NCBI RefSeq assembly: GCF_002105755.1
Contig: NZ_CP020821.1
Location: forward strand, 5,270,001 to 5,334,000
DNA: 64,000 nucleotides
Reading direction: 5' to 3'
Source of the DNA: Mycobacterium colombiense CECT 3035
GTDB lineage: Bacteria > Actinomycetota > Actinomycetes > Mycobacteriales > Mycobacteriaceae
Position 1 is the stretch's first letter. Every line of letters starts with the position of its first letter. The notes under the pieces are model-generated. The model was given only the letters and a program-made list of their open reading frames with translations. It was not told where the DNA came from and made no database searches. A program made the position numbers and the translations under genes. Positions 9,854 through 60,545 of this stretch are shown piece after piece.

Positions 9854-9976
9854 ATCGACTGATTCTGCCGGACGACATGCCGGGCCCGTCGGCCGCAGCG
9901 TACGGCGAACGGACGAACGTGCCAGGATGGGCGTTGTTGAGCGCATGGCGACGACGCAGAGGGGAGAGGCGCGCCT

Positions 9977-10780: not shown

Positions 10781-10837
10781 TGGCGATCGGCAGCGCGGCG
10801 TAGCCGGGCGCAGCGATCTTGAGTGTGAGCTGACGGC

Positions 10838-10918
10838 TTCGAGTGTGCAGTGGCGGCGCGCCCGATCGGCGTGTCGCCGCCGCAGATGCACACCGAAAGC
10901 CAACGATTCACACTCGAA
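10838..10918. repeat. Nested inverted repeat between convergent genes
   Basis: TTCGAGTGTG (10838-10847) pairs with CACACTCGAA (10909-10918), enclosing GGCGGCG (10852-10858) and CGCCGCC (10875-10881). A related half-copy, TTGAGTGTG, lies just upstream at 10819. It occupies the 169-base gap after parA and may act as a terminator or be a small dispersed intergenic repeat. Confidence 0.45.
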
Positions 10919-10949
10919 AAGGCGGCGCCCGTCGCGGCTTCCTTAGCGC

Positions 10950-12176
10950 TCAGCCCAGGGCGACCAGAGTGTCGCCGCGCTGCTCGAGCACCCGCGACCC
11001 GATCACGGCGGGGAATACGGGTTTGCCGGCCGGCGGGGCGCTCGTCGAGCGGTCCACCGGAATGTAGCGTTCGTTGGCGCCGCTGAGCGGGTCGTAGACC
11101 CCGATCGCGCCGGTGACCGGCACCAGCAGCCGGCCCGCCATCATCACCCCGGGCCCCAACGGCGCCGTCCTGTCGCCCGCGGCGATGGTGTAGCGCAGCG
11201 CCAGCGTGTTCGCGTCGAAGACCATCAGCGAATCGCCCGTCCACCAGGTGACCTGGCTGCCGGGGTGGGAGACCACCGCCGAGCGCGACGGCGGCTTGGG
11301 CAGCGGGGTGCTCGACACGGTCGCCCCGGTTTGGTCGATGACGTCGACCCTCGGCTGCGGCGCGGGCAGGTAGACCGCGGTGGTGTTCTCCGCCACGGTC
11401 AGCACCCGGGCGCCCGAATCCGGCGTGATGCCCGGTTCGGCCACGATGTGTTGCTGGGGTTCGTCGTCGTCCTTGCCCGGGCGCAGCAGCACCAGCCGCA
11501 GGTCGGCCTGGTTCGCGCAGCTCTCCAGCACCGACACCGCCTGCGAGCTGGCCGCGGCCGAGATCAGCTTGCATCCGGAGTGCAGGCCCCGCGTCGACGG
11601 CTTCACCCGCGCGTCGGTCTCGCCGTAGGCCACCATCCGGACCATGTCGGAACGCCACAGCTCCAGCCGTGTGTCGCCGACCGACAACACCGTCATGCCG
11701 TCGGAGGAAAGCCGCACCTTCGGATCGGCGTAGCCGCTGCGCGCGGGGCCCCGGCGACCGGTGGAACCGTCCAGGGTGCTCACCTGCCCGCAGCCGCGGT
11801 CGTCGCGGTAGACGCCCACGGCGTAGCGGTACAGCCAGGTGACCCCGCACAGGTCGATGTCGCGGGCGTAGCTCCAGCGGGACTGGCCGGTGCCCGGATC
11901 GCGCCCGTCGATTTGGCGGCCCGCGGCGGTGACGACCTCCCCGCCGGCGACCACCGGGGCGGTGGTGGCGGGACTGGCGGCGCTCCACAGCTGCTTGAGC
12001 CCGGCCGGCACCTGCTTGGCCGGCGCCGGGTTGGGTGCGGGCACGGCGGCGGGCCGGCTGCTGGTGGCCCGGGCGTCACTGCTCCACCAGATCAGCGCCG
12101 CGACCGCGGCGACGACGACCGCGATGGCCGCGGCGGCGAGCATGTCGCCCTTGGTGCGGCGCTCGGGTCTGACCAT
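10950..12176 (-). CDS. Membrane-anchored beta-propeller-like protein (Rv3212 homolog)
   Basis: A 408-residue protein with a short cytoplasmic N-terminus MVRPERRTKGD, one transmembrane helix (about 11-33), a Pro/Ala-rich linker, then a domain with repeated WxxD/E and GxVxxxD strands typical of PQQ/WD-like propellers, predicted outside the membrane. Four cysteines could form disulfides there. It starts 16 bases after the rhlE stop on the same strand, so it is probably cotranscribed with rhlE. The frame is open upstream but that overlaps the rhlE tail; ATG at 12176 gives the expected length of about 408. Role unknown. Confidence 0.8.
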   Translation of the reverse strand: MVRPERRTKGDMLAAAAIAVVVAAVAALIWWSSDARATSSRPAAVPAPNPAPAKQVPAGLKQLWSAASPATTAPVVAGGEVVTAAGRQIDGRDPGTGQSRWSYARDIDLCGVTWLYRYAVGVYRDDRGCGQVSTLDGSTGRRGPARSGYADPKVRLSSDGMTVLSVGDTRLELWRSDMVRMVAYGETDARVKPSTRGLHSGCKLISAAASSQAVSVLESCANQADLRLVLLRPGKDDDEPQQHIVAEPGITPDSGARVLTVAENTTAVYLPAPQPRVDVIDQTGATVSSTPLPKPPSRSAVVSHPGSQVTWWTGDSLMVFDANTLALRYTIAAGDRTAPLGPGVMMAGRLLVPVTGAIGVYDPLSGANERYIPVDRSTSAPPAGKPVFPAVIGSRVLEQRGDTLVALG

Positions 12177-12192
12177 GCGGCGGCGCGAGCCG

Positions 12193-13748
12193 TCAGTTGC
12201 TCTGCGTGGTGGTGGCGGCGGCCTGCCCATCGGCGGGCTTGCGACGCCGCCGGCGGCGGCGGGTGGAGCCGGCGTTGCCCGGGGGCGAGGCGGCCGGGGC
12301 TTCCGCGGTGGCCTCGCCGTTGGCGCTCGCGGTCCCGTTGCCCGACGGGTGCGCGCTGACGGGCTGGCCGCCACGGGTACGCCGCCGGGTGCCGGAGCGG
12401 CGCGCGGGCCTCTCCGACTTCTGCTCCGGCTTCTTGCCGCTCCGGTCGCTGCTGCTGCTGCGGCGCTGGCCTTGCGGCTTGCGGGCCGCGCCCACCGTGC
12501 CGCCGGCCTCGGCCGGGATGCCCAGCTCGGCGTGGAGGTGCGGCGAATTGGAATACGTCTCGGCGGGCTCGGGGCAGTCCAGACCCAGCGCTTTGTCGAT
12601 CAGCGACCAGCGGGGCAGCTCGTCCCAGTCCACCAGGGTGACCGCGATACCGGTCTTACCGGCGCGGCCCGTACGGCCGATGCGGTGCACGTAGGCCTGC
12701 TCGTCCTCGGGGATCTGGTAGTTGATGACGTGGGTGATGTCATCGATGTCGATGCCGCGGGCGGCGACGTCGGTGGCGACCAGCACGTCGATGTCGCCGG
12801 TCCGGAAGGCCTTCAGCGCCTTCTCGCGGGCCGCCTGGCCCAGGTCGCCGTGCACCGCACCGACCGCGAAGCCGCGCTCGGCCAGCTCGTCGGCCACCTT
12901 CTGCGCGGTGCGCTTGGTGCGGGTGAAGATCATCGTCGCGCCGCGGCCCTCGGCCTGCAGCACCCGGCTGACCAGCTCCACCTTGTCCAGGGCGTGGGCC
13001 CGGTAGACGTACTGCACGGTGGTGTCGTGGGTGGCCGCCGAGTGCGGCGCCTCCGCCCGGATGTGGGTGGGCTGGTTCATGAACGTGCGGGCCAGCGTGA
13101 TGATCGGGTCCGGCATGGTCGCCGAGAACAGCATGGATTGCCGGTCGGTGGGGATCTGGCGCAGGATGCGCTCGATGTCGGGCAGGAAGCCCAGGTCGAG
13201 CATCTCGTCGGCCTCGTCGAGCACCAGCACCGACAGCCCGCCCAGCTGCAGGTGGTTCTGCTGGCTCAGGTCGAGCAGCCGGCCCGGCGTGCCCACCACG
13301 ACGTCAGCGCCGGCGCGCAGCGCCTCGATCTGCGGCTCGTAGGGGCGCCCGCCGTAGATGGGGACGACCGACAGCGCCCTGTCACGGCCGGCATCGTCCT
13401 TGTCGGCGGACAGGTACTTGGCCGCCAGCGTCAGGTCATCGGTGACCTGCAGGCACAGCTCGCGGGTGGGGACCACGATCAGGGCCCGCGGCGTGCCGTT
13501 GAGGGGCGTGCGGCGGTGCCGGAGGTGATGCGCTGCAGCAACGGCACGCCGAAGGCGAAGGTCTTGCCCATGCCGGTGCGGGCCTGGCCGATCAGATCGT
13601 CGCCGGCGAGCGCCATCGGCAGGGTCAGTTCTTGGATGGCGAAAGGGCTTTCGATGCCCTTTTCGGCGAGCGCGCGCACGATCTCGTCGCGGACGCCGAG
13701 TTGCGCGAATGTTGGGGTCAGTTCAGTTGTGCTGGTGAGTGTGGTCAT
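12193..13748 (-). pseudogene. rhlE: DEAD-box RNA helicase RhlE, frameshifted in this sequence
   Basis: The helicase is split into two frames. The 5' part (13748 to about 13500) encodes the Q motif, IQELTLPMALAGDD, and motif I, ARTGMGKTFAF. The 3' part (to 12193) encodes PTREL, GTPGRLL, DEAD (LVLDEADEMLDLGF), SAT, the HRIGRTGRAGK motif and a basic C-terminal tail rich in Arg. The frame breaks in the run CGCCCCTCAACG (forward 13501-13507); one added C restores RPLNGTPRALIVVPTREL, the expected reading, and gives about 518 residues. Either a sequencing indel or a true loss; I favour the indel because three other genes here show the same kind of defect. Confidence 0.85.
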
Positions 13749-13969
13749 GCGTGGGTAAGTAGCCTCTCGGTGACGTTCGGTTGATGTCGGTATTTCTCTG
13801 TCGCGGTCACGCGCGCACGAGTTCCGACTCCGAATACGTCGCCGAGTCGCCGGCCCTGGCTCAGTCTGGGAGGGCCCCAGTCAGGGCGGGCCAGCTGTGC
13901 ACGCACATTTCGCCGATAGCGGCTTGAAAAAACAATTACGGCATGAGTACAGCCGCCATCTACCTACAT

Positions 13970-47826: not shown

Positions 47827-49155
47827 TTGTCGACACATTCGGGTCCCGGCTCACCTGTTCAGATCAACTCGCAACGAACCCCGCCATTCAAGTTGATTGC
47901 GGTCGCCGTGTTCATTGTGTGCACGCTGATTTTGGCGTTGGTGTACGGGCAATTCCGCGGCGCCTTCACCGACAAGACGCAGCTGACCATGATCGCCGCC
48001 CGCGCCGGGTTGGTGATGGATCCGGGTTCGAAGGTGACCTACAACGGGGTGGAGATCGGCCGGGTGGGGTCGATTGCGGAGACGGTGCGCGACGGGAAGC
48101 CGGCGGCGAAGTTCACGTTGGAGGTGTACCCGCGGTACCTCAAGCTGATCCCGTCGAATGTGAATGCCGATATCAAGGCGACGACGGTGTTCGGTGGCAA
48201 GTACGTGTCGTTGACGTCGCCGGCCAACCCGTCGCCGCAGCGGATTTCGTCGCACACGGTGATCGATGCGCGGTCGGTGACCACCGAGATCAACACGCTG
48301 TTCCAGACGATCACCTCGATCGCGGAGAAGGTGGATCCGGTCAAGCTGAATCTGACGTTGAGCGCGGCGGCGCAGTCGTTGGCGGGGCTGGGGGAGAAGT
48401 TCGGCCAGTCGGTGACCAACGCCAACGTGCTGCTCGATGATGTGAATCCGCAGCTGCCGCAGGCGCGCAAGGACATTCAGCAGTTGGCGGCGCTGGGCGA
48501 CACGTACGCCAACGCCGCGCCGGACCTGTTGGATTTTTTGAACAACGCGGTGATCACCTCGCGCACCATCAACGCCCAGCAAAAGGATCTGGACCAGGCG
48601 CTGCTGTCGGCGGCCGGGTTCGGTAACACCGGCGCGGAGCTGTTCACCAAGGGTGGGCCGTATCTGGCGCGCGGCGCCGCCGATCTGGTGCCCTCCGCGC
48701 AGCTGCTGGACACCTACAGCCCGGAAATCTATTGCACGCTGCACAATTACCACGACATCGTGCCCATCACGGGTGCCTCCGAGGGCGGGTTCAACGGCTA
48801 CTCGCTGAACATGGACACCGAGGTCACGTCGGGCCTCGGTCTGATCGCGAACCCGCTGTCGCTCGCCGCCGTCGCCGCGCTCACGCTGGGCCTGGGCGCC
48901 ACGGCCGGCCTGGTCGGCGGTGCCCCCAACCCGTACGTCTACCCCGAGAACCTGCCGCGGGTGAACGCGCGCGGCGGCCCGGGCGGTGCGCCGGGGTGCT
49001 GGCAGCCGATCACCCGCGACCTGTGGCCCGCGCCGGAGCTGGTGATGGACTCCGGCAACAGCCTCGCGCCGTACAACCACCTGGACACCGGATCGCCGTA
49101 CGCGATCGAGTACGTCTGGGGCCGCCAGGTCGGCGACAACACGATCAACCCGTAA
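47827..49155 (+). CDS. MceA-family (MlaD-like) lipid-transfer protein, tandem copy 1
   Basis: A 442-residue Mce protein with an N-terminal membrane helix (about 24-44), an MCE/MlaD domain (about 52-130; GLVMDPGSKVTYNGVEIGRV, FGGKYVSL) and a long helical domain. MceA proteins form part of hexameric lipid-uptake channels with MceB-F and YrbE permeases, but none of those is adjacent. It starts at TTG after GAGGGG, about 11 nt away. The central 145 residues are identical to the next gene. Confidence 0.85.
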   Translation: MSTHSGPGSPVQINSQRTPPFKLIAVAVFIVCTLILALVYGQFRGAFTDKTQLTMIAARAGLVMDPGSKVTYNGVEIGRVGSIAETVRDGKPAAKFTLEVYPRYLKLIPSNVNADIKATTVFGGKYVSLTSPANPSPQRISSHTVIDARSVTTEINTLFQTITSIAEKVDPVKLNLTLSAAAQSLAGLGEKFGQSVTNANVLLDDVNPQLPQARKDIQQLAALGDTYANAAPDLLDFLNNAVITSRTINAQQKDLDQALLSAAGFGNTGAELFTKGGPYLARGAADLVPSAQLLDTYSPEIYCTLHNYHDIVPITGASEGGFNGYSLNMDTEVTSGLGLIANPLSLAAVAALTLGLGATAGLVGGAPNPYVYPENLPRVNARGGPGGAPGCWQPITRDLWPAPELVMDSGNSLAPYNHLDTGSPYAIEYVWGRQVGDNTINP

Positions 49156-49298
49156 ATCCCGCTTGGCGCGCGAAAGGTCTGCCGGCCAACATCATTCGCT
49201 CTCCGGCATCGGCGGTCACCCGCCGCCGGCGGGAACGATGATTCGCAAAATGATGTTGTGCGACCGCCGATTCCGCTGTTGCTTTGTTTGTGCCACGG

Positions 49299-49323
49299 CG
49301 TCGCGGTACATTTCACTGATCTT
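49299..49323 (+). promoter_or_regulatory. Conserved 25-nt block upstream of mceA copy 2
   Basis: CGTCGCGGTACATTTCACTG plus ATCTT, the counterpart of the block at 47706-47730. It lies about 130 bases before the ATG at 49455. The remainder of this roughly 300-base gap contains no gene I can support. Confidence 0.45.
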
Positions 49324-49454
49324 ATTGCATGCGTGTACAGGCTGGGTGGCGGCGGCACCGGGATGAGGGGCAGGGTTGGCGACCGTGGGTTATCTGGACA
49401 ACCACCCGCATAGGTGGCTGCCCCTGATGACCGTCGGGAGCGCGGCGTAGCGCC

Positions 49455-50762
49455 ATGGAGGGTTCACCCGTTCAGATCAACGACTCGCGCGAGCCGCCCT
49501 ACAAGGTGATCACCTTCATCGTGGTCGTGGTGCTCGCGGTGATCTTCACCCTGGTCTACATCCAGTTCCGTGGAGGTTTCACGTCCAAGACCGAGCTGAC
49601 GATGTTGGCCTCGCGGGCCGGGTTGGTGATGGATCCGGGTTCGAAGGTGACCTACAACGGGGTGGAGATCGGCCGGGTGGGGTCGATCTCGGAGACGGTG
49701 CGCGACGGGAACCCGGCCGCCAAGTTCACCCTCGAGGTGTACCCGCGGTATTTGGCGTTGATTCCGTCGAACGTCAACGCCGATATCAAGGCGACGACGG
49801 TGTTCGGCGGCAAGTACGTGTCGTTGACGACGCCGGCCAACCCGTCGCCGCAGAAGATTTCGACACACACGGTGATCGATGCGCGGTCGGTGACCACCGA
49901 GATCAACACGCTGTTCCAGACGATCACCTCGATCGCGGAGAAGGTGGATCCGGTCAAGCTGAATCTGACGTTGAGCGCGGCGGCGCAGTCGTTGGCCGGG
50001 CTGGGGGAGAAGTTCGGCCAGTCGGTGACCAACGCCAACGTGTTGCTCGATGACGTGAATCCACAGCTGCCACAGGCGCGCAAGGACATTCAGCAGTTGG
50101 CGGCCCTGGGCGACACGTACGCCAACGCCGCGCCGGACCTGTTGGATTTCTTGAACAACGCGGTGATCACCTCGCGCACCATCAACGCCCAGCAAAAGGA
50201 TCTGGACCAGGCGCTGCTGTCGGCGGCCGGATTCGGCAACACCGGCGCGGAGCTGTTCACCAAGGGTGGGCCGTATCTGGCGCGCGGCGCCGAAGATCTG
50301 ATCCCGACGGCGCAGCTGCTGGACACCTACAGCCCGGAAATCTATTGCCTGATGCGCAGCGAACACGATGCGCTGCCGGCCACCGGCGCGGCCGAGGGCG
50401 GGTTCAACGGCTACTCGCTGAACATGGACACCGAGGTGCTCTCCGGGTTGGGGCTGATCGCGAACCCGGTCTCCGCGGTGCCCGTCATCGCGTCGCTGGT
50501 GGGCGGCATCGCCGGGGTGGTCGGCGGCGCCCCCAACCCCTACATCTACCCGGAGAACCTGCCGCGGGTGAACGCGCGCGGCGGCCCGGGCGGCGCGCCG
50601 GGGTGCTGGCAGAAGGTCACCCGCGACCTGTGGCCGGCGCCCGAGCTCATCATGGACACCGGCAACAGCATCGCGCCCTATAACCACCTGGACACCGGAT
50701 CGCCGTACGCGATCGAGTACGTCTGGGGCCGCCAGGTCGGCGACAACACGATCAACCCGTAG
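49455..50762 (+). CDS. MceA-family (MlaD-like) lipid-transfer protein, tandem copy 2
   Basis: A 435-residue paralog of the preceding gene. N-terminal helix (about 16-36), MCE domain and helical region as in copy 1. From 49620 to 50333 the DNA aligns with 48007-48720 without gaps and is nearly identical, and the last 75 bases are identical, while the N-terminus and the segment around residues 290-350 differ. No yrbE or mceB-F genes follow. Start ATG with a weak GGGAG upstream. Confidence 0.85.
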   Translation: MEGSPVQINDSREPPYKVITFIVVVVLAVIFTLVYIQFRGGFTSKTELTMLASRAGLVMDPGSKVTYNGVEIGRVGSISETVRDGNPAAKFTLEVYPRYLALIPSNVNADIKATTVFGGKYVSLTTPANPSPQKISTHTVIDARSVTTEINTLFQTITSIAEKVDPVKLNLTLSAAAQSLAGLGEKFGQSVTNANVLLDDVNPQLPQARKDIQQLAALGDTYANAAPDLLDFLNNAVITSRTINAQQKDLDQALLSAAGFGNTGAELFTKGGPYLARGAEDLIPTAQLLDTYSPEIYCLMRSEHDALPATGAAEGGFNGYSLNMDTEVLSGLGLIANPVSAVPVIASLVGGIAGVVGGAPNPYIYPENLPRVNARGGPGGAPGCWQKVTRDLWPAPELIMDTGNSIAPYNHLDTGSPYAIEYVWGRQVGDNTINP

Positions 50763-50826: not shown

Positions 50827-51744
50827 TCAGGCTTGGGAGGCCGCCTTCGGTCTGGCGGTGGCCTTCACGTCCCGCCCCGCCCCGGCCGACATGGAGGCTG
50901 CCTCGCCGCGAGCCAGGCCGATCGTCGCAACGATCACCACGACCAGCGTCACCGCGAGGACGAACCACTCCCAGCCGCCGGCTGCCAGCGTCTCGGCGAG
51001 CACGGTGATGCCGAGGATCCCGCCCACCACGGGCTTCGCCACGATGATGGTCGGCAGGGAGGCGGTGAGCGCGCCGGCTCGATACGCCGATTGGTGATAG
51101 ACCATGCCGGCGCCCCCGCAGAACACCAGCGCATACAGCTCGAAGGATTGCCAGATGTCGCCGGGGTGGTGTTCCAGGACGTCGACGACGCCCTTCATCA
51201 GGACGGCGAACACCGCCAGCAGCGTGCCGGCCACCGCCGCCAGCAGCAGCGCCGCCAGCGGGCGATCCGACCAGATGCGCGCGCCCAGCAAACCGAGCAG
51301 CAGCAGGGGGCCGATCACCGCCGCCACCACGAGCCACGTGTGCAGCGGCGCCCGCTGCTGGCCGCCGGTCGGGTCTCCGACCGCGATGAGCACCGCCAGC
51401 GCCACCGCCAACACCAGCGCCCAGCTCCACTCGCGGCGGGTGATGCGGTTACCGGTCATCCGCGAGTAGATCGGCAGCGCGAACAGGAGCGCCGTCACCT
51501 GCAACGACATCACCAGCAACACCGAGCCGTCGTCCAGGGCGGCGGCCAGCAGCACGTAGCTGCCGATGTCGCCCAAACCGCCCAGCCACCAACGCTTGTC
51601 GCGCAGCAGCATGCCGAACAACGTCAGGTGCCCGACCCGTTTGTCGGTGACCTCCTGCGCGGAACGTTGCCGGACCACGTTGCCGATCGCGGACGCCAGC
51701 GCAGCGCACAGGGCGAGAATGGCCGCCAGATGCACGTCCGACAT
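50827..51744 (-). CDS. DMT-superfamily permease
   Basis: A 305-residue protein with about nine or ten hydrophobic helices. Two EamA-like halves: LAAILALCAALASAIGNVVR at the N-terminus and VYHQSAYRAGALTASLPTII in the second half. Cargo unknown. A strong GAGGAGGT lies 6 nt before the ATG. It is convergent with the second mceA gene. Confidence 0.82.
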   Translation of the reverse strand: MSDVHLAAILALCAALASAIGNVVRQRSAQEVTDKRVGHLTLFGMLLRDKRWWLGGLGDIGSYVLLAAALDDGSVLLVMSLQVTALLFALPIYSRMTGNRITRREWSWALVLAVALAVLIAVGDPTGGQQRAPLHTWLVVAAVIGPLLLLGLLGARIWSDRPLAALLLAAVAGTLLAVFAVLMKGVVDVLEHHPGDIWQSFELYALVFCGGAGMVYHQSAYRAGALTASLPTIIVAKPVVGGILGITVLAETLAAGGWEWFVLAVTLVVVIVATIGLARGEAASMSAGAGRDVKATARPKAASQA

Positions 51745-51857: not shown

Positions 51858-52751
51858 TCAGAGCGGGAATTTCGTCCCGGTGAGTCGCTCCGACAGTTCC
51901 CAGAGGGCGGCGGCGGTGCCGGCGCGCTTTGCCGGCCAGTTGCGCCACGTCGGCTGGGTGCGCCCGTACAAGCCGAACCTCGGGCCGACGAACGTGTCGC
52001 CCGGCAAATCCTGGGAGACCGCGTACAAGGTCTGGCGGGCGCCGAAATCGGCATCGGTGGACACGATCCGGTCGACCGCCAGGACCGCCGCGTCGCCCAG
52101 CTTGCGGCCGGAGTTTCCCTGCAGGTTGGTGTGCGACCACCCGGGGTGGGCGGCCAGCGCGCGCAACGAGGTGGGGACGCCGTCCAAGCGCCGTTGCAGC
52201 TCCTTGGTGAACAGCAGGTTGGCCAGCTTCGACTGGCTGTAGGCCAGCCAGGCCGAATACGGCCGGGACTCGAAATTGAGGTCTTTGAGGCTGACGTAGC
52301 CGAAGTGGTGCATCAGCGAGGACACCGTCACCACGCGGTCGGTCAGCTTGGGCAACAGCAGGTTGGTCAACGCGAAGTGGCCGAGGTGGTTGGTGCCGAT
52401 CTGGCCCTCGAAGCCGTCGACGGTGACGGCGTGTTTGGTGGCCATGATGCCGGCGTTGTTGACCAAGACGTCGACCGCGTCGATGCCCTCGGCAAAGCGC
52501 CGCACCGAGGACAGGTCTTGCAGATCGAGCTGGCGCACCTCGGCCGTCCCGGTTGCCGTCCCGGTTGCCGAACCGGTCATGCGCGTCGCCGCGGCCCGGC
52601 CTTTGTCGGTGTTGCGGACGGCCAGGATGACGTGGCCGCCGACCCGGACCAACTCGCGGGCGGTGATCTCGCCCAGTCCGGCGTTGGCGCCGGTGATGAC
52701 GACGGTTCGTCCGGCGAACGAGGGTAGCTCGGCTGCGGTCCAATCGGGCAT
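51858..52751 (-). CDS. SDR-family oxidoreductase, retinol-dehydrogenase-like
   Basis: A 297-residue classical/extended SDR. Cofactor motif VITGANAGLGEITAREL, NNAGIM, catalytic Ser in VVTVSSLMHHFG and YSQSK with the catalytic Tyr and Lys. The arginines in LAVRNTDKGR suggest NADP(H). The ATG is leaderless: TAGGGT lies 7 nt upstream. GTG at 52760 is an unlikely alternative. Divergent from the lipid-kinase gene. Confidence 0.87.
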   Translation of the reverse strand: MPDWTAAELPSFAGRTVVITGANAGLGEITARELVRVGGHVILAVRNTDKGRAAATRMTGSATGTATGTAEVRQLDLQDLSSVRRFAEGIDAVDVLVNNAGIMATKHAVTVDGFEGQIGTNHLGHFALTNLLLPKLTDRVVTVSSLMHHFGYVSLKDLNFESRPYSAWLAYSQSKLANLLFTKELQRRLDGVPTSLRALAAHPGWSHTNLQGNSGRKLGDAAVLAVDRIVSTDADFGARQTLYAVSQDLPGDTFVGPRFGLYGRTQPTWRNWPAKRAGTAAALWELSERLTGTKFPL

Positions 52752-52758
52752 GGCAAAC

Positions 52759-52764
52759 ACCCTA
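52759..52764 (-). promoter_or_regulatory. -10 box of a leaderless promoter (second SDR gene)
   Basis: On the minus strand TAGGGT, 7 nt, then ATG at 52751. Confidence 0.45.
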
Positions 52765-52900: not shown

Positions 52901-53893
52901 ATGTATCTAGGCGTCATCGTCAATCCGAAAGCGCGGAGGAATCGCGCCGCTTCCGCCGACCGCATCGCCGAACTGCGTCGCATCGTCGGCTCCCGCGGCG
53001 AGGTGCACGAGACCAACTCGATCGAGGAGCTTCGCGACGCCATCCGGCAGCTCGCGCCGCGGGTCACCCATCTGGTGGGCGACGGCGGTGACGGCGCACT
53101 GCACTGGTTGATCAACGAGATCGAGCGCTGCGTCAGCGATCCGCAGCGCTGGCCCGCGTTCGTCCCGACCAACGGCGGCAGCGTCAACGCCGTCGCGCGC
53201 AAGGCCCGGGTGCGCGGGCGGCCCGAAGCGATCATCCGTGCGCTGGCCGCCGCCGCGGAGGCGGACCGACCACCGTCCGACGTCAGCCTGGACACGTTGG
53301 CGCTCGACGGCGAAACCGCCGACGGCGCGGCGTTTCACCGGCTTTGCTTCGGGCTGGCGGCCGGAGGCGTCGGAAACCGTTTCTACGACCGGTATTACGA
53401 CTCACCCGATCACAACCGGCTGGCCGTCGCCCGGGTGATCGCCCGCAGCTTCGGCGACTACATCACCTCCAAAATCGCCCCCGGCCACGTGAAGACGCCG
53501 AACTACGCCTCCATCCTGTTCACCCCGACGCGGGCGCGCGTGGTCATCGACGGCGACGAGGTCCCGTCGCGCACGCACAGCCTGCTGCACGCCGGCGCGA
53601 TCGACCTCCGCATCGGCGGCCCGCTTCGGTTGTTCCCCAAGGCTTCCGAACCCGGCGCGCTGCATTTCCAGGCCGGAAACCTACGGCCGTCCAGGATCGT
53701 GGCGCAGCTCCCGACGGCCCTGACCAACGGGATGCTCCGCGGCGAGGGGCTCCGCGATGTCATCGGGCACGAGATGATCATCGAAGCCGAGGACGAGCCG
53801 CTGTCGCCCATCATTGACGGCGAGCGTTTCCTCGGCATCGTGAAGCTGGTGGCCCGCGCGGGCCCGCACATCCGCATCGCGCGGCCCGCCTAG
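52901..53893 (+). CDS. Diacylglycerol/lipid kinase-family protein
   Basis: A 330-residue member of the DAGK_cat superfamily. First strand YLGVIVNPKARRNR, nucleotide motif VGDGGDGALHWLINE (about 59-73) and PTNGGSVNAVARKA. It is divergent in sequence from the kinase at 6199-7164, and the lipid substrate is unknown. It lies directly upstream of the A+T-rich segment and the fatty-acid operon, on the same strand but 420 bases away. Confidence 0.8.
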   Translation: MYLGVIVNPKARRNRAASADRIAELRRIVGSRGEVHETNSIEELRDAIRQLAPRVTHLVGDGGDGALHWLINEIERCVSDPQRWPAFVPTNGGSVNAVARKARVRGRPEAIIRALAAAAEADRPPSDVSLDTLALDGETADGAAFHRLCFGLAAGGVGNRFYDRYYDSPDHNRLAVARVIARSFGDYITSKIAPGHVKTPNYASILFTPTRARVVIDGDEVPSRTHSLLHAGAIDLRIGGPLRLFPKASEPGALHFQAGNLRPSRIVAQLPTALTNGMLRGEGLRDVIGHEMIIEAEDEPLSPIIDGERFLGIVKLVARAGPHIRIARPA

Positions 53894-54313
53894 CCGGCTC
53901 TCGAACGCCGGGCTTGCACGGCCCACGAGGCCGGTTAGAAATGGCGTTTTTGGCTTTGCGATTTCGTCAATAGGTGTGACGAAGATAAAAGTCTCATTTC
54001 ACGCTCACCGCGCGCCTGGCCGGCAATACTGAATACGTGAATTCGTAGATACGTAGGTCAGTATTTCCTGTATAGGAGCAGCGGTAATGCCAGGTAAAAT
54101 GCCACTGAGATACTGAAGTACGGATGCGCGTAGATCAGCATCCGCGCAATTGATTTTCGCCTCTAAGTTTATCCTGTGAATGTAGTGTGCGACCGCCATT
54201 AATGCTGGTCGACGTTTTGCTCGCGGTAGGTGTACGGCGCTACATTGGTTTTATATTCACGGACGGAAGTCTTTCTCGGGCCACGCCAACCTGGAAGGGG
54301 GATCACTCCTACG
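53894..54313. other. A+T-rich noncoding segment before the FAAL operon
   Basis: About 420 bases, visibly richer in A+T than the flanking genes. Seen in it: AATACTGA (54025-54032) facing TCAGTATT (54058-54065); a hairpin CGGATGC (54121-54127)/GCATCCG (54138-54144); ATACTGAATACG recurring as ATACTGAAGTACG near 54110; and a possible -10 TATATT near 54251. No ORF with a ribosome site is convincing. It may hold the operon promoter and regulator sites, or be a scar of transferred DNA. Confidence 0.5.
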
Positions 54314-57300
54314 ATGGAGACACTGATCGACTACCTGCAGATGTGGGAAGCGCAGAGGCCGGACCAGACCCTCTTCCGGTTCGTCGACGCCGACGGCCGC
54401 GAACTCGAGCACTACACCTACCAGGCCTTCGCCGAACGCACCCGCGAACTGGCCGCCTACCTGTCCCGGGAGGCCGGCCTCAAGTCGGGTGATCGCGCGC
54501 TGCTGGTTTACCCGCCCGGCCTGGAGATGATCGCGGCGCTGTACGCATGCGCGCGCATCGGGGTGATCGCCGTTCCGGTCAGCCCGCCCCTGCCGATGTC
54601 CTTCGATTCCGGGCTCGCCAAGCTCAGCTTCATCGCTCGCGACTGCCAGGCCGTGGCCGTGCTGTCGACGAAGCAGTTCGAGTACGACTTCCGCCAGTTG
54701 CTCGGCCAACGCGACGGCGAGCAGGTGTGGGCGGGCGCCGGTGCCGGCCTGCCGGACCTGCCCTGGTACGCGACCGATGGCGCGCAGGACTTCGGCGGCG
54801 CCCCCGTCGCGGACACTCCCGGTGAGGTGTTCTTCCTGCAGTACACCTCGGGCTCCACGAGCGACCCCAAAGGCGTGATCGTCACCCACTCCAACGTCAT
54901 CGCCAACGGCTCCGCCTTCACCGGCGACGTGGTGCTGGCGTCGTGGCTGCCGCAGCACCACGACATGGGGTTGATCTCGGCCTACATGTTCATCGTGCTG
55001 CTGGGCGGGTCGACGCACGCGATGTCGCCCCTGGACTTCCTCGCCCGGCCGTCGTCGTGGCTTCGGCTGATCAGCGATGTGCGCGCCACCCACACGCCGG
55101 GCCCCAACTTCGCGCTCGAATACTGCCTGCGCGAGGACAAGCTGCCCGACTCCGAATTGGCCGGTGTCGACCTGAGCAGCCTCGAGTGCATCGTGGTGGG
55201 CGCAGAACCATTGCGCGCCAACACCTTCGCCCGATTCCGGGAGCGGTTCGCCGAGTACGGTCTGCGGCCCGAGGCGCTCACCGGCGCCTACGGGATGGCC
55301 GAATCCACCTTGATCGTCTCGATCCGTGGGCGCCAGACCATCGCGGTGAACAAGCGTGGGCTGGAACGCAACGTCGCTCGCGTCGAAAAGGCGCTGCCGG
55401 AGAACAGCAATCAGGTCCCGTTGGTCAGCTGCGGCAAGCCCATCGACAGCAGCATGGTTCGCATCGTCGATCCCGAATCGCGCCAGGCGCTGCCCGACGG
55501 GCGGGTCGGCGAGGTCTGGTTGGCCGGGCCCTCCAAGGGCGCCGGTTACTGGAACCGCCCGGAACTCACGGCGGAGATGTTCGGCGCCCGCGTCGCCGGC
55601 GACGACGAGCACACCTACCTGCGGACCGGCGATCTGGGCTTCCTCTACGAGGGCGAGCTGTTCGTCTGCGGCCGCAGCAAGGACCTGATCATCGTCCGCG
55701 GCGTCAACTGCTATCCCTCCGACGTCGAAGCCGTCGTCGAGCGCAGCGCCCCACACATCCGCAGCGGCTGCGTCGCCGCCTTCTCGGTCGAGCACGACGA
55801 GTCCGAGGCGCTGATCGTGGTCGCCGAGGTGCGCGACGCGCACAACCTTCCGGACGCCAAGGCCATCGCCCGCGCGATCCGGCGGCACTGCCACATCGAC
55901 CCGCACGCGATCGTCTTCGCGCCGCCGCGCAGCATCCCCAAGACCACGTCGGGGAAGATCCGGCGCGCGTCGACCCGCCAACTGTGGCTGGACGACCAGC
56001 TTCCCGCCTTCGCGAGCTGGATCAACCAGTCGGCCAACAGGATTCACGATGGCCTGGCCGCGGGCCCGCTGGAGCGTTTCCGCAACCTCATCGAGAGCTA
56101 CGACCTCACCGGCGACGAGGACTGCTCGTTCGCCGATCTCGGCATCGACTCGCTGGCACTGGCCGAGCTTCGCACCGACCTGCAGGCGCTGCTGGAGGAG
56201 AATGGCGCGGGCGAGCTGGCCGAAGAGGTCAACACCCGCCTGCTGCAGCGGCTGACGGTGTCCGAATTCTTCGCGCTGATAAGCCGATTCGGCGACGGAT
56301 CCGGGCAGGCGCTCGACGCCCTGCGCCGGGCGCTGGATCAGATCTCCGCCGAGTACGAGGCCCACGAGGCCGCCCAGATGCGCGCCGACGCGGCGCTGCC
56401 GCTGCCCGAACTGGCGCCCGAGCGCCCGGGTGAGCCCACCGACCTCCTGCTCACCGGCGCGACCGGATTCCTGGGGCCGTTCCTGGTGAGCAGCCTGCTG
56501 ACGCGGACTTCCTACACGGTGCACGCGCTGGTGCGCGCCACGGACGCCGCGCACGGCCTGGACCGCATCGTCGCCTCGCTGCGCCGCGCCCAGCTGTGGA
56601 CGCCGGCGCTGGAAGCCGACGTGCGCGCCCGGGTCCGCATTGTCTGCGGCGATCTCGCCGAGCCCGCGCTGGGCATCGGCGAGGCGGCCTTCCAGCAGCT
56701 GGCGGCCGACGTCGATGCCGTCGTGCACAACGGCGCGCTGGTCAACTACGTCCGCACCTACGACGCCCTGCGCCCCGCCAACGTGGAGGGCACCCGCGAG
56801 CTGCTCCGGCTGGCAATGACCGACCACCGCAAGGTTTTCCACCTCGTCTCCAGCACGTTCATCTACGGCTGGAGCACCGAGCCGGTGGTCGGGGAGTGGG
56901 ATGCCAACGAAAAGATGGCCGGCCTGGACTTCGGCTACTCGCAGACCAAGTGGGTCGGCGAGCAGCTGGCCCTGGCCGCGCAGCGCAAGGGACTCGACGT
57001 CCGCATCTACCGGCCCTCGCTGATCTCGCCGACCCGCGCGGGCTTCGGCAGCCAGGACGACATCCTGGTGCGGCTGACGGCGTTCATGATCGAGCACGGC
57101 GTCGCCGTCAACGCGCTCAACCAGATCAGCCTGCTGCCGGCGGACCTGATCGCGGAGCACATCGTCGGACTGATGGGCCTGCCCAAAGATGACAGCGTGG
57201 GCAGTGTTTTCAATATGACCGCCGACGACTACTACAACCTCACCGACATCACCCGGATCCTGTCCGAGCGGTACGGGTATCGCTTTGAGTACCACGACAT

Positions 57301-57568
57301 CCCGTCGTTCACCGAGCAGCTGAACCGCCGCTGCACGCCGAACGACCAGATGTACCCGCTGGTCGATTTCCTCACCCGGTCGGCGGACAAGATCGCGGCG
57401 ATGCGGGACAAGCGCTACGACAACACGCAGTACCGGCACCGGCGGGGGTTGGCGAACGTCCACCTGCGCGAGCCGGCCCTGACCGAGACGGTCGATCATC
57501 TGGTCCGGTTCCTGCGCAGCGAGCGGTTGATCACCGAGGTGGAGGACGAGGCGCAGCGCAGCGCCTAG
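54314..57568 (+). CDS. Fatty acyl-AMP ligase - ACP - thioester reductase
   Basis: A 1084-residue, three-part enzyme. The adenylation domain (about 1-575) has the FAAL/FadD-type P-loop YTSGSTSDPKG (177-187), YGMAESTLIVS and GDLGF. The carrier domain has LGIDSLAL with Ser613 for phosphopantetheine. The reductase domain has GATGFLG (715-721) and Tyr875/Lys879 in YSQTKW. It should activate a fatty acid, load it on the internal ACP and reduce the thioester to an aldehyde (or alcohol) with NAD(P)H. It resembles carboxylic acid reductases in logic but has a FAAL-like ligase. ATG follows GGAAGGGGG at 12 nt. First gene of a tight operon. Confidence 0.88.
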   Translation: METLIDYLQMWEAQRPDQTLFRFVDADGRELEHYTYQAFAERTRELAAYLSREAGLKSGDRALLVYPPGLEMIAALYACARIGVIAVPVSPPLPMSFDSGLAKLSFIARDCQAVAVLSTKQFEYDFRQLLGQRDGEQVWAGAGAGLPDLPWYATDGAQDFGGAPVADTPGEVFFLQYTSGSTSDPKGVIVTHSNVIANGSAFTGDVVLASWLPQHHDMGLISAYMFIVLLGGSTHAMSPLDFLARPSSWLRLISDVRATHTPGPNFALEYCLREDKLPDSELAGVDLSSLECIVVGAEPLRANTFARFRERFAEYGLRPEALTGAYGMAESTLIVSIRGRQTIAVNKRGLERNVARVEKALPENSNQVPLVSCGKPIDSSMVRIVDPESRQALPDGRVGEVWLAGPSKGAGYWNRPELTAEMFGARVAGDDEHTYLRTGDLGFLYEGELFVCGRSKDLIIVRGVNCYPSDVEAVVERSAPHIRSGCVAAFSVEHDESEALIVVAEVRDAHNLPDAKAIARAIRRHCHIDPHAIVFAPPRSIPKTTSGKIRRASTRQLWLDDQLPAFASWINQSANRIHDGLAAGPLERFRNLIESYDLTGDEDCSFADLGIDSLALAELRTDLQALLEENGAGELAEEVNTRLLQRLTVSEFFALISRFGDGSGQALDALRRALDQISAEYEAHEAAQMRADAALPLPELAPERPGEPTDLLLTGATGFLGPFLVSSLLTRTSYTVHALVRATDAAHGLDRIVASLRRAQLWTPALEADVRARVRIVCGDLAEPALGIGEAAFQQLAADVDAVVHNGALVNYVRTYDALRPANVEGTRELLRLAMTDHRKVFHLVSSTFIYGWSTEPVVGEWDANEKMAGLDFGYSQTKWVGEQLALAAQRKGLDVRIYRPSLISPTRAGFGSQDDILVRLTAFMIEHGVAVNALNQISLLPADLIAEHIVGLMGLPKDDSVGSVFNMTADDYYNLTDITRILSERYGYRFEYHDIPSFTEQLNRRCTPNDQMYPLVDFLTRSADKIAAMRDKRYDNTQYRHRRGLANVHLREPALTETVDHLVRFLRSERLITEVEDEAQRSA

Positions 57569-57619
57569 CCTGAAACTTGGACGCCGCGGGTCGCCGCAAG
57601 ACGGAAAGGGGTGGCGACG

Positions 57620-58528
57620 ATGTTCACCGTCGATGACAAGGCAACGGGCCCGCACGACGCGTCGCTCGACCACGAGCGGATCGTCCTGCAGGCGCGTGAC
57701 GTCGACTTCGACTGGTCGACGCTGCCGTTCTACTACGTGCCCAACGAGCCCTTCACCACGCACTTCTGCAACGTGCTGCACCTGTTGCTGCCCGCGGGCG
57801 AGGAGTTCATCGTGGACGCCTTCAAGGACACCTTGCCGCTGATCAAAGACGATCAACTGCGGCGCGACGTGCAGGGATTCATCAGCCAGGAGGCCATGCA
57901 CTCGCAGGCGCACGCCGGCGTGCTCGGGCATTTCGCGGCGAACGACATCGACGTGACGCCGTTCACCGACCAAATGCGTTGGCTGTTCACCCAACTCATC
58001 GGCGACCGGCCGCGGTGGAGCCCGCGGCGGCGCCAAAGCTGGCTGCTCGAGCGGGTATCGATGGTGGCCGCGCTCGAGCACTACACGGCCATCCTCGGTG
58101 AATGGATCCTCGACACCCCGCAGCACGACGCCATGGGCACCGACCCCGTGATGCTCGACCTGTTGCGCTGGCACGGCGCCGAGGAAGTCGAGCACAAGGC
58201 GGTCGCCTTCGACACCATGAAGCACCTGCGCGCCGGCTACTGGCGGCAGGTGCGCACCCAGCTGCTGATCACACCGGCGCTGCTGTGGTTGTTCGTCCGC
58301 GGCGTGCGTTTCATGTACTCCGTCGACCCGTACTTGCCGCCCGGCACCAAGCCGCGCTGGCGCGACTACTTCCGCGCTGCGCGCCGGGGCCTGGTGCCCG
58401 GGCCATTCCAGTTCCTGCGGGTCATCGGCGCCTACTACACCCCGAGTTTCCATCCCTCCCAGCTGGGCGGGGTGGGGCGCGCGGTCGACTACCTGGCCCG
58501 CTCGCCCGCCGCCCGCGCGGCGCACTGA
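57620..58528 (+). CDS. PF10118-type 'metal-dependent hydrolase' with ferritin-like diiron motif
   Basis: A 302-residue protein of the family named predicted metal-dependent hydrolase. Visible ligand pattern: Glu62 (GEEF), Glu91xxHis94 (QEAMH), Glu153 (LEHY) and Glu189xxHis192 (EEVEH). This is the E..ExxH..E..ExxH order of ferritin-like diiron oxygenases. A hydrophobic segment (about 218-233) could attach to membrane. AAAGGGG lies about 8 nt before ATG 57620; GTG 57611 is an alternative. It lies between the reductase and hydrolase genes, with a 2-base gap to the next, so it probably acts on the product of the first enzyme. Confidence 0.8.
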   Translation: MFTVDDKATGPHDASLDHERIVLQARDVDFDWSTLPFYYVPNEPFTTHFCNVLHLLLPAGEEFIVDAFKDTLPLIKDDQLRRDVQGFISQEAMHSQAHAGVLGHFAANDIDVTPFTDQMRWLFTQLIGDRPRWSPRRRQSWLLERVSMVAALEHYTAILGEWILDTPQHDAMGTDPVMLDLLRWHGAEEVEHKAVAFDTMKHLRAGYWRQVRTQLLITPALLWLFVRGVRFMYSVDPYLPPGTKPRWRDYFRAARRGLVPGPFQFLRVIGAYYTPSFHPSQLGGVGRAVDYLARSPAARAAH

Positions 58529-58530
58529 CG

Positions 58531-59454
58531 ATGACGACCGAAGTGGCTTCAACCACGGTCGCCGCCTCCGACGGCGTGCGACTGGCGGTGCACACCTACA
58601 CCGACCTCGACCCCGGCCGGCCGACCATCCTGGCCATCCACGGCTACCCGGACAATCACCACGTCTGGGATCCGGTGGCAACGACATTGAGCCGCCGATT
58701 CAACGTCGTGGCGTACGACGTGCGTGGGGCCGGCCAATCCTCAACGCCGGCAGACCGTTCGGGGTATCGACTGCCGCAGCTGGTCGCCGACGTCGGCGCG
58801 GTGATCGAGCGCCTCGGCGTGGACAGCGTGCACCTGCTGGCCCACGACTGGGGGTCGATCCAGGCCTGGGCCGCGGTCACCGACGACGCGGTGATGGGCA
58901 AGATCGCCTCCTTCACCTCGGTCTCCGGGCCGCACCTGAACTACGCGGGCAAGTTCCTGCGGTCAGCGCGCACGCCGCGGGCGCTTTTCGACGTGGCCAA
59001 ACAGATCCTGGCCTCGTCCTACATCTGGTTCTTCCTGTGCCCGGGCGTACCGGAGCTGGCGATCCGATCCCGGGCGACGGTGAAAGTCTTTGAGGCGGTT
59101 GAGCGCATCGGTGGATCGGACACCCGCGGCGGTCGCGGTGCGACGTACCGCTCGGCCGACGATTACCTCAACGGGCTCAACCTGTACCGCGCGAACATGC
59201 CCGCACCGATCCTGTCACCCCCTGCGCAACTGCCGCAGACCACCGTTGCGGTACAGGTGCTGGTCGCACGCCAAGACTATTTCGTATCGCCTGCCCTGCA
59301 ACGGTTTACCGGGTCCATCCCGGAGGGCGGCAGGGTCGTCCCGATCGAGGGCGGCCACTGGGTGGTGACCGCGTACCCCGAGGTCATCGCCCGGCTCACC
59401 GGCGAGTGGGTAGACCTGATCGCCCAGTCCACCGACCGTCGTGGCCTCGGCTAG
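58531..59454 (+). CDS. Alpha/beta hydrolase, epoxide-hydrolase-like
   Basis: A 307-residue alpha/beta-fold protein. The nucleophile elbow is AHDWGS, so Asp is the nucleophile as in epoxide hydrolases and dehalogenases; HGYPDNHHVWD is the HGxP oxyanion motif, and the catalytic His is in EGGHWVV. It resembles the hydrolase half of EphD-type proteins. It starts 2 bases after the diiron gene and ends 8 bases before the reductase gene, so it is translated from one message with them. Confidence 0.87.
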   Translation: MTTEVASTTVAASDGVRLAVHTYTDLDPGRPTILAIHGYPDNHHVWDPVATTLSRRFNVVAYDVRGAGQSSTPADRSGYRLPQLVADVGAVIERLGVDSVHLLAHDWGSIQAWAAVTDDAVMGKIASFTSVSGPHLNYAGKFLRSARTPRALFDVAKQILASSYIWFFLCPGVPELAIRSRATVKVFEAVERIGGSDTRGGRGATYRSADDYLNGLNLYRANMPAPILSPPAQLPQTTVAVQVLVARQDYFVSPALQRFTGSIPEGGRVVPIEGGHWVVTAYPEVIARLTGEWVDLIAQSTDRRGLG

Positions 59455-59462
59455 ATGTGAGG

Positions 59463-60545
59463 ATGATTGTGGCACAGACTATTTGGGACGGCATCCCGGC
59501 CGACCTGTACGGCCGCCGCAAACGGGACCGGATGTACACCGCGTTGTACGGGGTGGGTGCCCTGTTCGGCGGCCTCGCGACGGCGTCGCGGTGGACGTCC
59601 GCGCGGGTGCAGCCGGTGCGGCGAACCACCACCGCGGTCGTCACCAACCGCGAACTGCTGGCGCCCGATGTGGTCGCGTTGACGCTGGCCGACCCGTCCG
59701 GAGGATTGTTGCCGTCCTGGACACCGGGTGCGCACATCGACGTTCGGCTGCCATCGGGCCGGCGCCGGCAGTACTCGCTGTGTGGTTCGCCCGGGCGGCG
59801 CACCGACTATCGCATCGCGGTGCGGCGCATCGCCGACGGCGGCGGTGGCTCGATCGAAATGCACGAGGCCTTCCACGTGGGCGACAAATTCGAGTTCGAA
59901 GGGCCCCGCAATGCTTTCTATCTCGTCACCGACGAGCGCGAGGTCTTGTTCGTGATCGGCGGCATCGGGGTGACGCCGATCCTGCCCATGATCCAGACGG
60001 CCCAGCAGCGTGGAATCAATTGGCGCGCCGTGTATGCCGGCCGCGGCCGGGAGTACATGCCGTTGCTGGACGAGGTGCTGGCGGTGGACCCGGACCGGGT
60101 CACCGTGTGGGCCGACGACGAACGCGGCCGATTCCCCACCGCGACCGACCTGCTTGCCGGCGCCGGGCCGGCGACGGCCGTCTACGTGTGTGGCCCCACC
60201 GCCATGCTGGAAGCGGTGCGCACCGCGCGCAACGAACACGCGAACGCGCCGCTGCACTACGAGCGTTTCGGCCCTCCGCCGGTGGTCGACGGGGTTCCCT
60301 TCGAGCTGGAGCTGGCCCGGTCGCAGCGGGTGCTCAGCGTGCCGGGGAACCGGTCGGCGCTGGACGTCATGCTCGATCGCGACTCGACCACCGCCTACTC
60401 GTGCCAGCAGGGGTTCTGCGGCACCTGCAAGGTGAAAGTGCTTGGCGGGCAGGTCGATCGCCGCGGGCGCACCGCGGAGGGCCAGGACGAGATGCTGGTC
60501 TGCGTTTCCCGTGCGAAATCCGGGCGCGTGGTGATCGACGCCTGA
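59463..60545 (+). CDS. Phthalate-dioxygenase-reductase-type flavoprotein with 2Fe-2S domain
   Basis: A 360-residue electron-transfer protein. FAD domain with RQYSLCGSP, NAD domain with FVIGGIGVTPILPM and YVCGPTAMLEAV, and a C-terminal plant-type ferredoxin domain with CQQGFCGTC and a later LVC, giving all four cluster cysteines. It would pass electrons from NAD(P)H to an oxygenase, here by context the diiron protein two genes upstream. Start ATG 59463; GTG 59469, better spaced from TGAGG, is possible. Last gene of the operon. Confidence 0.88.
   Translation: MIVAQTIWDGIPADLYGRRKRDRMYTALYGVGALFGGLATASRWTSARVQPVRRTTTAVVTNRELLAPDVVALTLADPSGGLLPSWTPGAHIDVRLPSGRRRQYSLCGSPGRRTDYRIAVRRIADGGGGSIEMHEAFHVGDKFEFEGPRNAFYLVTDEREVLFVIGGIGVTPILPMIQTAQQRGINWRAVYAGRGREYMPLLDEVLAVDPDRVTVWADDERGRFPTATDLLAGAGPATAVYVCGPTAMLEAVRTARNEHANAPLHYERFGPPPVVDGVPFELELARSQRVLSVPGNRSALDVMLDRDSTTAYSCQQGFCGTCKVKVLGGQVDRRGRTAEGQDEMLVCVSRAKSGRVVIDA

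Follow-up and report, generated by a model that had tools for sequence, protein, structure and literature searches.

The mycobacterial lipid loci that depend on fatty acyl-AMP ligases (FAALs), which we take to be those where FadD21, FadD23, FadD26, FadD28 or FadD32 stands with polyketide synthases (PKS) and MmpL proteins, convert a free fatty acid into acyl-AMP and transfer it to a carrier. The same entry is predicted for an operon of Mycobacterium colombiense CECT 3035 located in the stretch of DNA analysed here, a window of 64,000 nucleotides within the single contig of this 5.58-Mb genome (G000:C1:5270001-5334000). In contrast to the known loci, the conserved gene set has no PKS, the ligase, the acyl carrier protein (ACP) and a thioester reductase are joined on one chain (gene 1), and the operon includes a predicted diiron oxygenase of family PF10118 (gene 2), the hydrolase half of an EphD-type epoxide hydrolase (gene 3) and a reductase (gene 4). 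Carboxylic acid reductases (CAR, NF041592) also carry adenylation, carrier and reductase domains on one chain, whereas the ligase of gene 1 is of the FAAL type. The operon can be grouped with the FAAL-driven mycobacterial lipid loci, as a variant with a PF10118 component. Together with three upstream genes, the operon may form a seven-gene lipid-modification locus yielding an oxygenated, probably phosphorylated and exported alkyl lipid, a reading that we hold tentatively and rate at somewhat less than an even chance.

Comparison of gene 1 with profile collections returned FAALs among the top matches (PRK05850, FAAL_FadD21 and FadD32, NCBIfam), and the solved structures matched by its ligase domain were mostly FAALs (PDB 7r7e, E 3e-104; FadD23, FadD32). 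The ATP/AMP motifs are present and the top hidden Markov model matches favour a FAAL over a CoA ligase, with the qualification that among the 25 rows listed no FAAL model attains its own curated cut-off on gene 1 (379.7 bits vs 775 for PRK05850; 303 vs 975 for FadD32) and that the FAAL-specific insertion was judged by eye. The carrier domain matched PF00550 (PP-binding) with 21.2 bits for a cut-off of 20.8, and the thioester reductase domain matched TIGR01746 with 244.2 bits, above the curated cut-off of 213.35. Of the 61 mycobacterial loci, 60 have Ser613, T848, Y875 and K879, and in the other one the alignment does not reach these positions; all active-site residues checked were found in 59-60 of the 61 and are invariant wherever the alignment covers them. 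Identity as a CAR was considered and rejected, with only 133 bits against NF041592 for a cut-off of 1300. From its domain content, the FAAL/ACP/thioester reductase chemistry of gene 1 is well supported.

Gene 2 belongs to Metal_hydrol (PF10118), with 246.1 bits for a gathering cut-off of 33.2 and a match spanning profile positions 1-245 of 247. Its predicted fold is that of the R2/R2lox/AurF diiron proteins, with a four-helix core, and the E, ExxH, E, ExxH residues typical of this class sit on helices of the model and are invariant in all 58 loci aligned. R2lox, AurF, CmlI and ribonucleotide reductase (RNR) R2 resemble gene 2 in predicted fold and ligand pattern, but identity is 6-17% in the structural alignments shown, and gene 2 stands as a separate sequence family for which no solved member was found by sequence, the PDB search giving no relative up to E 1. 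Diiron is well supported as the cofactor class on the basis of this model, and gene 2 is very probably not a hydrolase despite the Pfam name, the predicted fold and ligand set speaking against that candidate. A defence role for genes 2 and 4 was also rejected, since a PADLOC search with both gave no match. We found no paper on the function of PF10118/COG3687 or on this locus in an open library searched by titles and abstract starts; PMC8960859 mentions PF10118 once, and Rv2777c or Rv2776c is named in five papers. As a separate observation, PF10118 genes also occur on viral contigs of IMG/VR (L138:3935-4678, L137 and L139-L142; Pfam-confirmed for L137 and L141), L138 carrying in addition an ORF (open reading frame) that reads like a DnaB-type helicase.

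Epoxide hydrolases of the alpha/beta fold combine an HGxP motif, an Asp nucleophile, two lid Tyr residues and an Asp/His pair. Gene 3 (Pfam Abhydrolase_1) aligned to epoxide hydrolase 5ng7 with H37GYP, D106, Y164, Y219, D249 and H276, and these residues are kept in 55-56 of 56 loci, the remainder falling outside the aligned piece. Against the EphD model PRK05855 it scored 312 bits for an equivalog cut-off of 455, resembling the hydrolase half: like EphD it has this half with the full catalytic set, but EphD is fused to a short-chain dehydrogenase/reductase (SDR), whereas gene 3 stops 8 bases before gene 4 and has no SDR half. Gene 4 contains Fer2, NAD_binding_1 and FAD_binding_6 domains and matched phthalate dioxygenase reductase (PDR; PDB 2pia) over residues 60-359 with E 2e-51; the four cysteines of its C-terminal, plant-type 2Fe-2S cluster, Cys314, Cys319, Cys322 and Cys347, are present in 56 of 56 loci. 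According to PMC7998700, EphD acts as a hydrolase on 9,10-epoxystearic acid. Overproducing it leaves less epoxymycolate and more dicarboxymycolate, the latter being attributed by the authors to wax-ester mycolates, deletion of ephD impairs ketomycolates, and that work does not settle the role of the SDR half. Because of this epoxide chemistry, an epoxide would be the likeliest intermediate between genes 2 and 3.

These results agree in part with a sequence-only reading of the window. ORFs confirmed the positions of its four genes, all on the + strand with spacings of 51, 2 and 8 bases, and its assignments were borne out by Pfam and NCBIfam matches and by invariant active-site residues. The conversion of an acid into acyl-AMP, acyl-ACP and aldehyde that it had ascribed to gene 1 is supported by the domains; the pairing of a diiron oxygenase with a reductase, by the predicted fold of gene 2, its ligands and the adjacency to gene 4; and the epoxide-hydrolase-like nature of gene 3, by the complete catalytic set.

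The four-gene order, whose conservation that reading had left to be checked, was examined in relatives of gene 1 from genome contigs, of which the best 80 of 114 were kept, giving 73 loci (61 mycobacterial and 12 from other phyla); the search was seeded on the query's own peptides, and distant gene 1 loci are under-sampled in this set. The closest relative, at 95%, is in a Mycobacterium colombiense record. A test of the order needs at least 3.4 kb of sequence after gene 1, which 57 mycobacterial loci offer (L061, L076, L093 and L102 being too short); 55 of these retain it, far beyond chance; genes in the neighbourhood scans were called by a crude G+C method, by which neighbours may be missed. 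Gene 1 is present in 30 of 148 genomes of the genus (E 1e-200) and in 3 of 296 genomes and 1 of 198 genera of a phylum-wide draw, that of the window included. Of the first 60 genomes of the genus, the same 13 hold gene 1 and a gene 2 of at least 88% identity. The holders, as read from record titles, are slow-growing mycobacteria, presumably of the avium, simiae, scrofulaceum, kansasii and celatum groups.

Of the 57 loci, 12 still have an EphD-type SDR half after gene 3, with 66-80% identity to the SDR half of the paralogue. On the gene 1 tree the SDR state requires two changes or three, according to whether L090 is included, and two is the minimum imposed by the starred branches; this tree was a quick one without mixture model, with five rows lacking an SDR label, and such changes cannot separate loss from gain. 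Provided that the fusion is the ancestral state, for which the paralogues speak, M. talmoniae (L084) would represent a separate loss among SDR-bearing relatives. After the module joined gene 1, the SDR half may have become dispensable and was probably lost at least twice, which fits redundancy with the thioester reductase or with the upstream SDR.

To which company genes 2-4 originally belonged is indicated by their paralogues. The genome holds four PF10118 genes, and the closest paralogue of gene 2 (78%; G000:C1:251000) lies with gene 3 and gene 4 homologues beside a gene resembling a flavin monooxygenase (FMO). In the corresponding locus of other species, gene 3 is in L041 a full EphD-like hydrolase-SDR fusion of 586 aa, and in L040 and L024 there is no gene 3. 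The translated flanks of L040 read as PNPase, M16 peptidase, nitronate monooxygenase, alanine dehydrogenase, Lrp regulator and SRPBCC protein, which we take to match the Rv2776c-Rv2783 region of the tubercle bacillus, the paralogous module beside ald being presumably its Rv2776c-Rv2780 region; the shared position of the other paralogous loci was judged from ORF order and length only. This module resembles the operon in its gene 2 and gene 4 homologues (72-79%) and, in several species, in an EphD-like gene between them, so placed as in the operon, but it has no FAAL/ACP/reductase protein. The order in other families (L046, L048, L050) is EphD-like gene, gene 2, gene 4. In the gene 2 tree, the proteins of the operon type are united in a single clade (99/97) next to the mycobacterial paralogues, so the duplicated module appears to have joined gene 1 once. 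As judged from these sequences, genes 2-4 arose by duplication from an older EphD/diiron/reductase module, which occurs without gene 1. A third module of the genome (G000:C1:3449238-3450092; L032) has a single-domain hydrolase of 302 aa followed in a row by gene 2 and gene 4 homologues, and lies downstream of a gene reading like a TetR regulator.

Within 5 kb of gene 2 relatives, 40 further neighbourhoods, chosen from longer lists, were scanned. A gene 4 homologue is the commonest partner, adjoining gene 2 in 24 of the 30 nearer relatives (34-51% identity). Matches to the SDR half were found beside gene 2 in L183, L212, L213 and L215, accompanied by a gene 3 match in the last three; L214 has a gene 3 match 2.7 kb away, and an FMO lies near gene 2 in L209 and L210. 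Of the 10 distant relatives (28-33%), five have an SDR and four an FMO. No thioester-reductase match was detected in any of the 40 (acyl ligases were not scanned for); thus an aldehyde made in this way is not a general substrate of gene 2 relatives. Plasmids offered comparable surroundings: an SDR-annotated gene (593 aa), gene 2 and a PDR-type reductase in Dietzia; gene 2, a PDR-type reductase, an FAD oxidoreductase, an SDR, an aldehyde dehydrogenase and a long-chain CoA ligase in Rhodococcus; and a relative of 28-29% with cytochrome P450, 2Fe-2S protein and FAD oxidoreductase in Acinetobacter haemolyticus from oil-contaminated soil. No such set surrounds the relatives on the A. baumannii, Pseudoalteromonas and Tsukamurella plasmids. 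Gene 2 is therefore found most often with an electron donor and enzymes that oxidise alkyl chains, rather than with an aldehyde maker, and some members of the family lack these partners. The sequence-only reading had named consistently unrelated partners of gene 2 homologues as a refutation of its view; the result comes close to this, except that the partners (reductase, EphD-like hydrolase/SDR, flavin monooxygenase) are mutually related and not random.

Upstream of the operon lie a lipid-kinase-like gene (dgkL) and, divergent from it, genes for an SDR and a DMT-family transporter. The product DgkL has a PF00781 score above the cut-off and a GGDG motif (residues 62-65), as expected of the DAGK_cat family, and GGDG and DGER are invariant in 16 of 16 sequences. 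With a single pre-set threshold (E 1e-60), DgkL was found in exactly the 30 of 148 genomes that hold gene 1 and was absent from the other 118, none keeping one gene of the pair without the other; the Fisher value of 5e-32 overstates independence, the genomes being relatives. DgkL precedes gene 1 in 57 of the 59 loci with room for it, L095 and L096 being the exceptions. Locus-type SDR orthologues (at least 80% identity) and the best-scoring, locus-type orthologues of the transporter mark the same 30 genomes, although the SDR query as such matches 132 of 148 genomes at E 1e-110; these two cuts were set after a gap was seen in the lists and are weaker evidence than the DgkL result, and the genome sets compared were entered by hand from match listings. 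The coincidence of these sets speaks against the SDR and the transporter being general neighbours only. The four genes of the sequence-only reading are real, but it missed three co-distributed upstream genes. Coordinates of all features are listed in Table 1.

Table 1. Features of the candidate lipid-modification locus; positions refer to the window.
Feature	Position	Strand	Remarks
DMT-family transporter	50827..51744	-	NCBIfam NF038012, 391.8 bits vs cut-off 50; 305 aa
SDR, PRK06197 type	51858..52760	-	300 aa; divergent from lipid-kinase-like gene
DAGK_cat lipid-kinase-like protein DgkL	52901..53893	+	330 aa; 39.2 bits vs cut-off 23.6
A+T-rich intergenic region	53894..54313	no strand	420 bp; probably control region of gene 1
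Gene 1: fatty acyl-AMP ligase / ACP / thioester reductase	54314..57568	+	1084 aa
Gene 1, FAAL domain	54317..56041	+	residues 2-576
Gene 1, ACP	56030..56310	+	phosphopantetheine Ser613 in LGIDSL
Gene 1, thioester reductase domain	56447..57442	+	residues 712-1043; TGATGFLG, T848, Y875xxxK879
Gene 2: PF10118 protein, predicted diiron oxygenase	57620..58528	+	E61, E91xxH94, E153, E189xxH192
Gene 3: alpha/beta hydrolase, EphD-type epoxide hydrolase half without SDR half	58531..59454	+	
Gene 4: flavin / NAD(P)H / C-terminal 2Fe-2S reductase, phthalate dioxygenase reductase type	59463..60545	+	

The segment between dgkL and gene 1 has 51.9% G+C, compared with about 67% around it, and had been taken by the sequence-only reading as a hint of acquisition. 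Its counterparts, of 421-1299 bases, are lower in G+C than their own locus in 57 of 57 loci, and the segment is therefore not a sign of recent acquisition; intergenic regions are expected to be lower in G+C than genes, and the comparison is of each segment with its own locus only. It is a shared, inherited feature and probably regulatory. A structured RNA and a sigma-70 promoter were considered as its content and rejected: an Rfam search gave no match up to E 1, and a sigma-70 scan, which did not cover other promoter types, gave one promoter-like site, on the minus strand, vs 0.5 expected, a count not clearly above chance. A terminator scan yielded nothing clearly above chance.

Outside the mycobacteria, gene 1 was found in 11 loci of Pseudomonadota and one of Gemmatimonadota (from record titles) at 40-44% identity, and because of this distribution it may be an old import from outside the actinobacteria, as far as sequence tells. 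In these 12 loci it is adjoined by a PAP2_3 protein in four (L113, L114, L115 and L121, of which L114 and L115 are both Rugamonas) and by a P450 in three (L112, L121, L123), and an FMO lies within about 2.2 kb in three (L110, L112 by similarity only, L123). Three further partners were seen once each, a CDP-alcohol phosphotransferase and an alpha/beta hydrolase in L110 and a desaturase in L123; a glutathione S-transferase (GST) was among the scanned neighbours in L116, L118 and, by similarity only, L117, and those scanned in L119 were uninformative. These counts are minimum values, several contigs being short and the neighbours of L109 not being among those scanned. A plasmid search with gene 1 (E 1e-100) gave two cyanobacterial records covering at most 57%. 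Among the mycobacterial relatives, Mycobacterium sp. E2733 (L095, 9965-17276) has a second gene 1 copy followed by an MmpL-family transporter and then a DMT transporter, recalling the FAAL lipid loci in this company; the first 30 or so residues of the MmpL ORF are similar to those at which the kinase-like protein starts, and L095 looks like a rearranged copy of the locus.

On the seven-gene reading, gene 1 would activate a free long-chain fatty acid to acyl-AMP, load it on its own ACP and, with NAD(P)H as reductant, set it free as a fatty aldehyde, or as an alcohol if two reductions take place. Gene 2, as an O2-activating diiron monooxygenase fed by its dedicated reductase gene 4, would oxygenate the alkyl chain, most likely to an epoxide, while the chain is still bound as acyl-ACP or once the product has been released, and gene 3 would open the epoxide to a vicinal diol. 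The upstream SDR could then adjust the hydroxylated lipid, the DAGK_cat protein phosphorylate it and the DMT transporter export it, if the steps follow in this order.

Several observations weigh against this reading. The roles of all the genes are predictions from sequences and models, and the Foldseek E-values for gene 2 are weak (best 0.028). The gene 4 partner is missing in 6 of the 30 nearer and all 10 distant gene 2 relatives, and a PDR-type reductase adjoins gene 2 in just 2 of 6 annotated plasmid neighbourhoods (7 records, one unannotated). Two loci are incomplete: in L090 only genes 1, 2 and 4 are present, and in L095 gene 1 stands without the other three. The AlphaFold model of DgkL is too poor for use (mean predicted local distance difference test, pLDDT, 55.6), and a PDB sequence search with DgkL gave no relative up to E 0.1. 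The SDR has a widespread paralogue of 65-75% found without the locus; the transporter likewise has paralogues apart from it, and its query found matches in 61 of 148 genomes at E 1e-80. Common descent could also account for the presence of the upstream genes beside the operon, since the 30 genomes are related and do not amount to 30 independent events. In M. lepraemurium (L096, 10001-13249) gene 1 is broken by one in-frame stop, and the 10 kb before it contain no kinase-like gene. In L036 (G029, 9310-13944) gene 1 is split into two called ORFs about 1 kb apart. Some species thus seem to be losing the locus.

The alternatives differ mainly in what gene 2 would do. It might act as a desaturase or hydroxylase on the ACP-held acyl chain, which the reductase domain would then release, gene 3 being a side activity. 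The ACP of gene 1 itself, the acyl-ACP desaturases 2j2f and 2uw1 among the weaker Foldseek rows and the persistence of genes 1, 2 and 4 without gene 3 in L090 would suit this arrangement; we nevertheless consider it unlikely, given that gene 2 relatives sit in modules without the carrier/reductase protein of gene 1 and that 55 of 57 loci keep gene 3, with the catalytic set complete. Conversion of the gene 1 aldehyde into a C(n-1) alkane by genes 2 and 4, in the manner of the cyanobacterial aldehyde-deformylating oxygenase (ADO), corresponds to the alkane route suggested by the sequence-only reading. ADO uses the same type of ligand set as gene 2, an aldehyde maker and a ferritin-like diiron protein do share the operon, a Kitasatospora protein with ADO activity appears as a weak Foldseek row (rank 31, probability 0.35), and the relative on the Rhodococcus plasmid has an aldehyde dehydrogenase nearby. 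With matches of E 0.001 or better admitted, however, Pfam assigned gene 2 to PF10118 only and to no ADO family, the 40 relatives scanned keep company with a reductase, EphD-like hydrolase/SDR and flavin monooxygenase and not with a thioester reductase, and gene 3 and the upstream trio would be left unexplained. ADO is not named among the 50 VIA rows listed for gene 2, which we do not count as evidence against it. As the module occurs without gene 1, an alkane-forming role is not specifically supported, and we regard it as highly improbable.

Two further alternatives concern the substrate. Gene 1 could load a very long, meroacid-like chain, with genes 2-4 handling epoxy, keto or wax-ester functions in remodelling of meromycolates or mycolates. 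This would accord with the effects of EphD on epoxy-, dicarboxy- and ketomycolates described in PMC7998700, and with the gene 3 homologue and FMO-like gene of the paralogous module at G000:C1:251000. We judge it quite unlikely, as the FAAL matches several subfamilies below cut-off, FadD32 included, and a terminal reductase has no obvious place in mycolic acid making. The locus might instead be catabolic, a module for subterminal alkyl oxidation by hydroxylase, SDR, Baeyer-Villiger flavin monooxygenase and alpha/beta hydrolase in which gene 1 recycles the acid, as the SDRs and FMOs around distant PF10118 genes (and the FMOs of L209 and L210) and the P450, 2Fe-2S protein and FAD oxidoreductase of the oil-soil Acinetobacter might suggest; this locus itself has no FMO, gene 1 would reduce the acid and not degrade it, and the transporter and kinase-like gene fit synthesis better, which makes a catabolic role distinctly improbable.

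Other genes of the window were noted in passing. Two adjacent Mce-family proteins (Mce4_CUP1 plus MlaD) are encoded at 47827-50762, with no further mce gene recognised around them, although no scan aimed at mce genes was made; the pair adjoins the locus in several M. colombiense-like loci (L053-L058, L060 and L103) and an NRPS-like (non-ribosomal peptide synthetase-like) gene lies in that position in L051, L052, L059, L071 and L094. A second DAGK_cat protein with a higher score (89 bits) is encoded at 6199-7164 on the - strand, distant from the locus.

If the seven-gene reading is true, slow-growing mycobacteria gain a lipid pathway that we did not find described in titles and abstracts of the open library. 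A more specific claim, which we regard as doubtful, is that the locus makes an undescribed class of mycobacterial lipid, an oxygenated (diol-like) alkyl phosphate or alkyl phospholipid derived from a fatty aldehyde or alcohol, and that PF10118 is an overlooked and widespread O2-activating diiron family misnamed as hydrolase. The natural variants, in which the SDR half is lost or kept, gene 3 is missing (one locus) or gene 1 lies beside an MmpL without genes 2-4, would allow the steps to be separated by comparative lipidomics without mutants, and the loss of the SDR half in this locus offers a way to study the unexplained SDR domain of EphD. In some proteobacteria, a P450 and/or a PAP2-type lipid phosphatase accompanies the FAAL-ACP-reductase protein where the mycobacterial locus has the diiron enzyme and the kinase, and the combination of an oxygenase with a lipid-phosphate enzyme would then be a recurring logic. 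For the family as a whole, the "metal-dependent hydrolase" of PF10118 would be a diiron oxygenase, often with a dedicated reductase.

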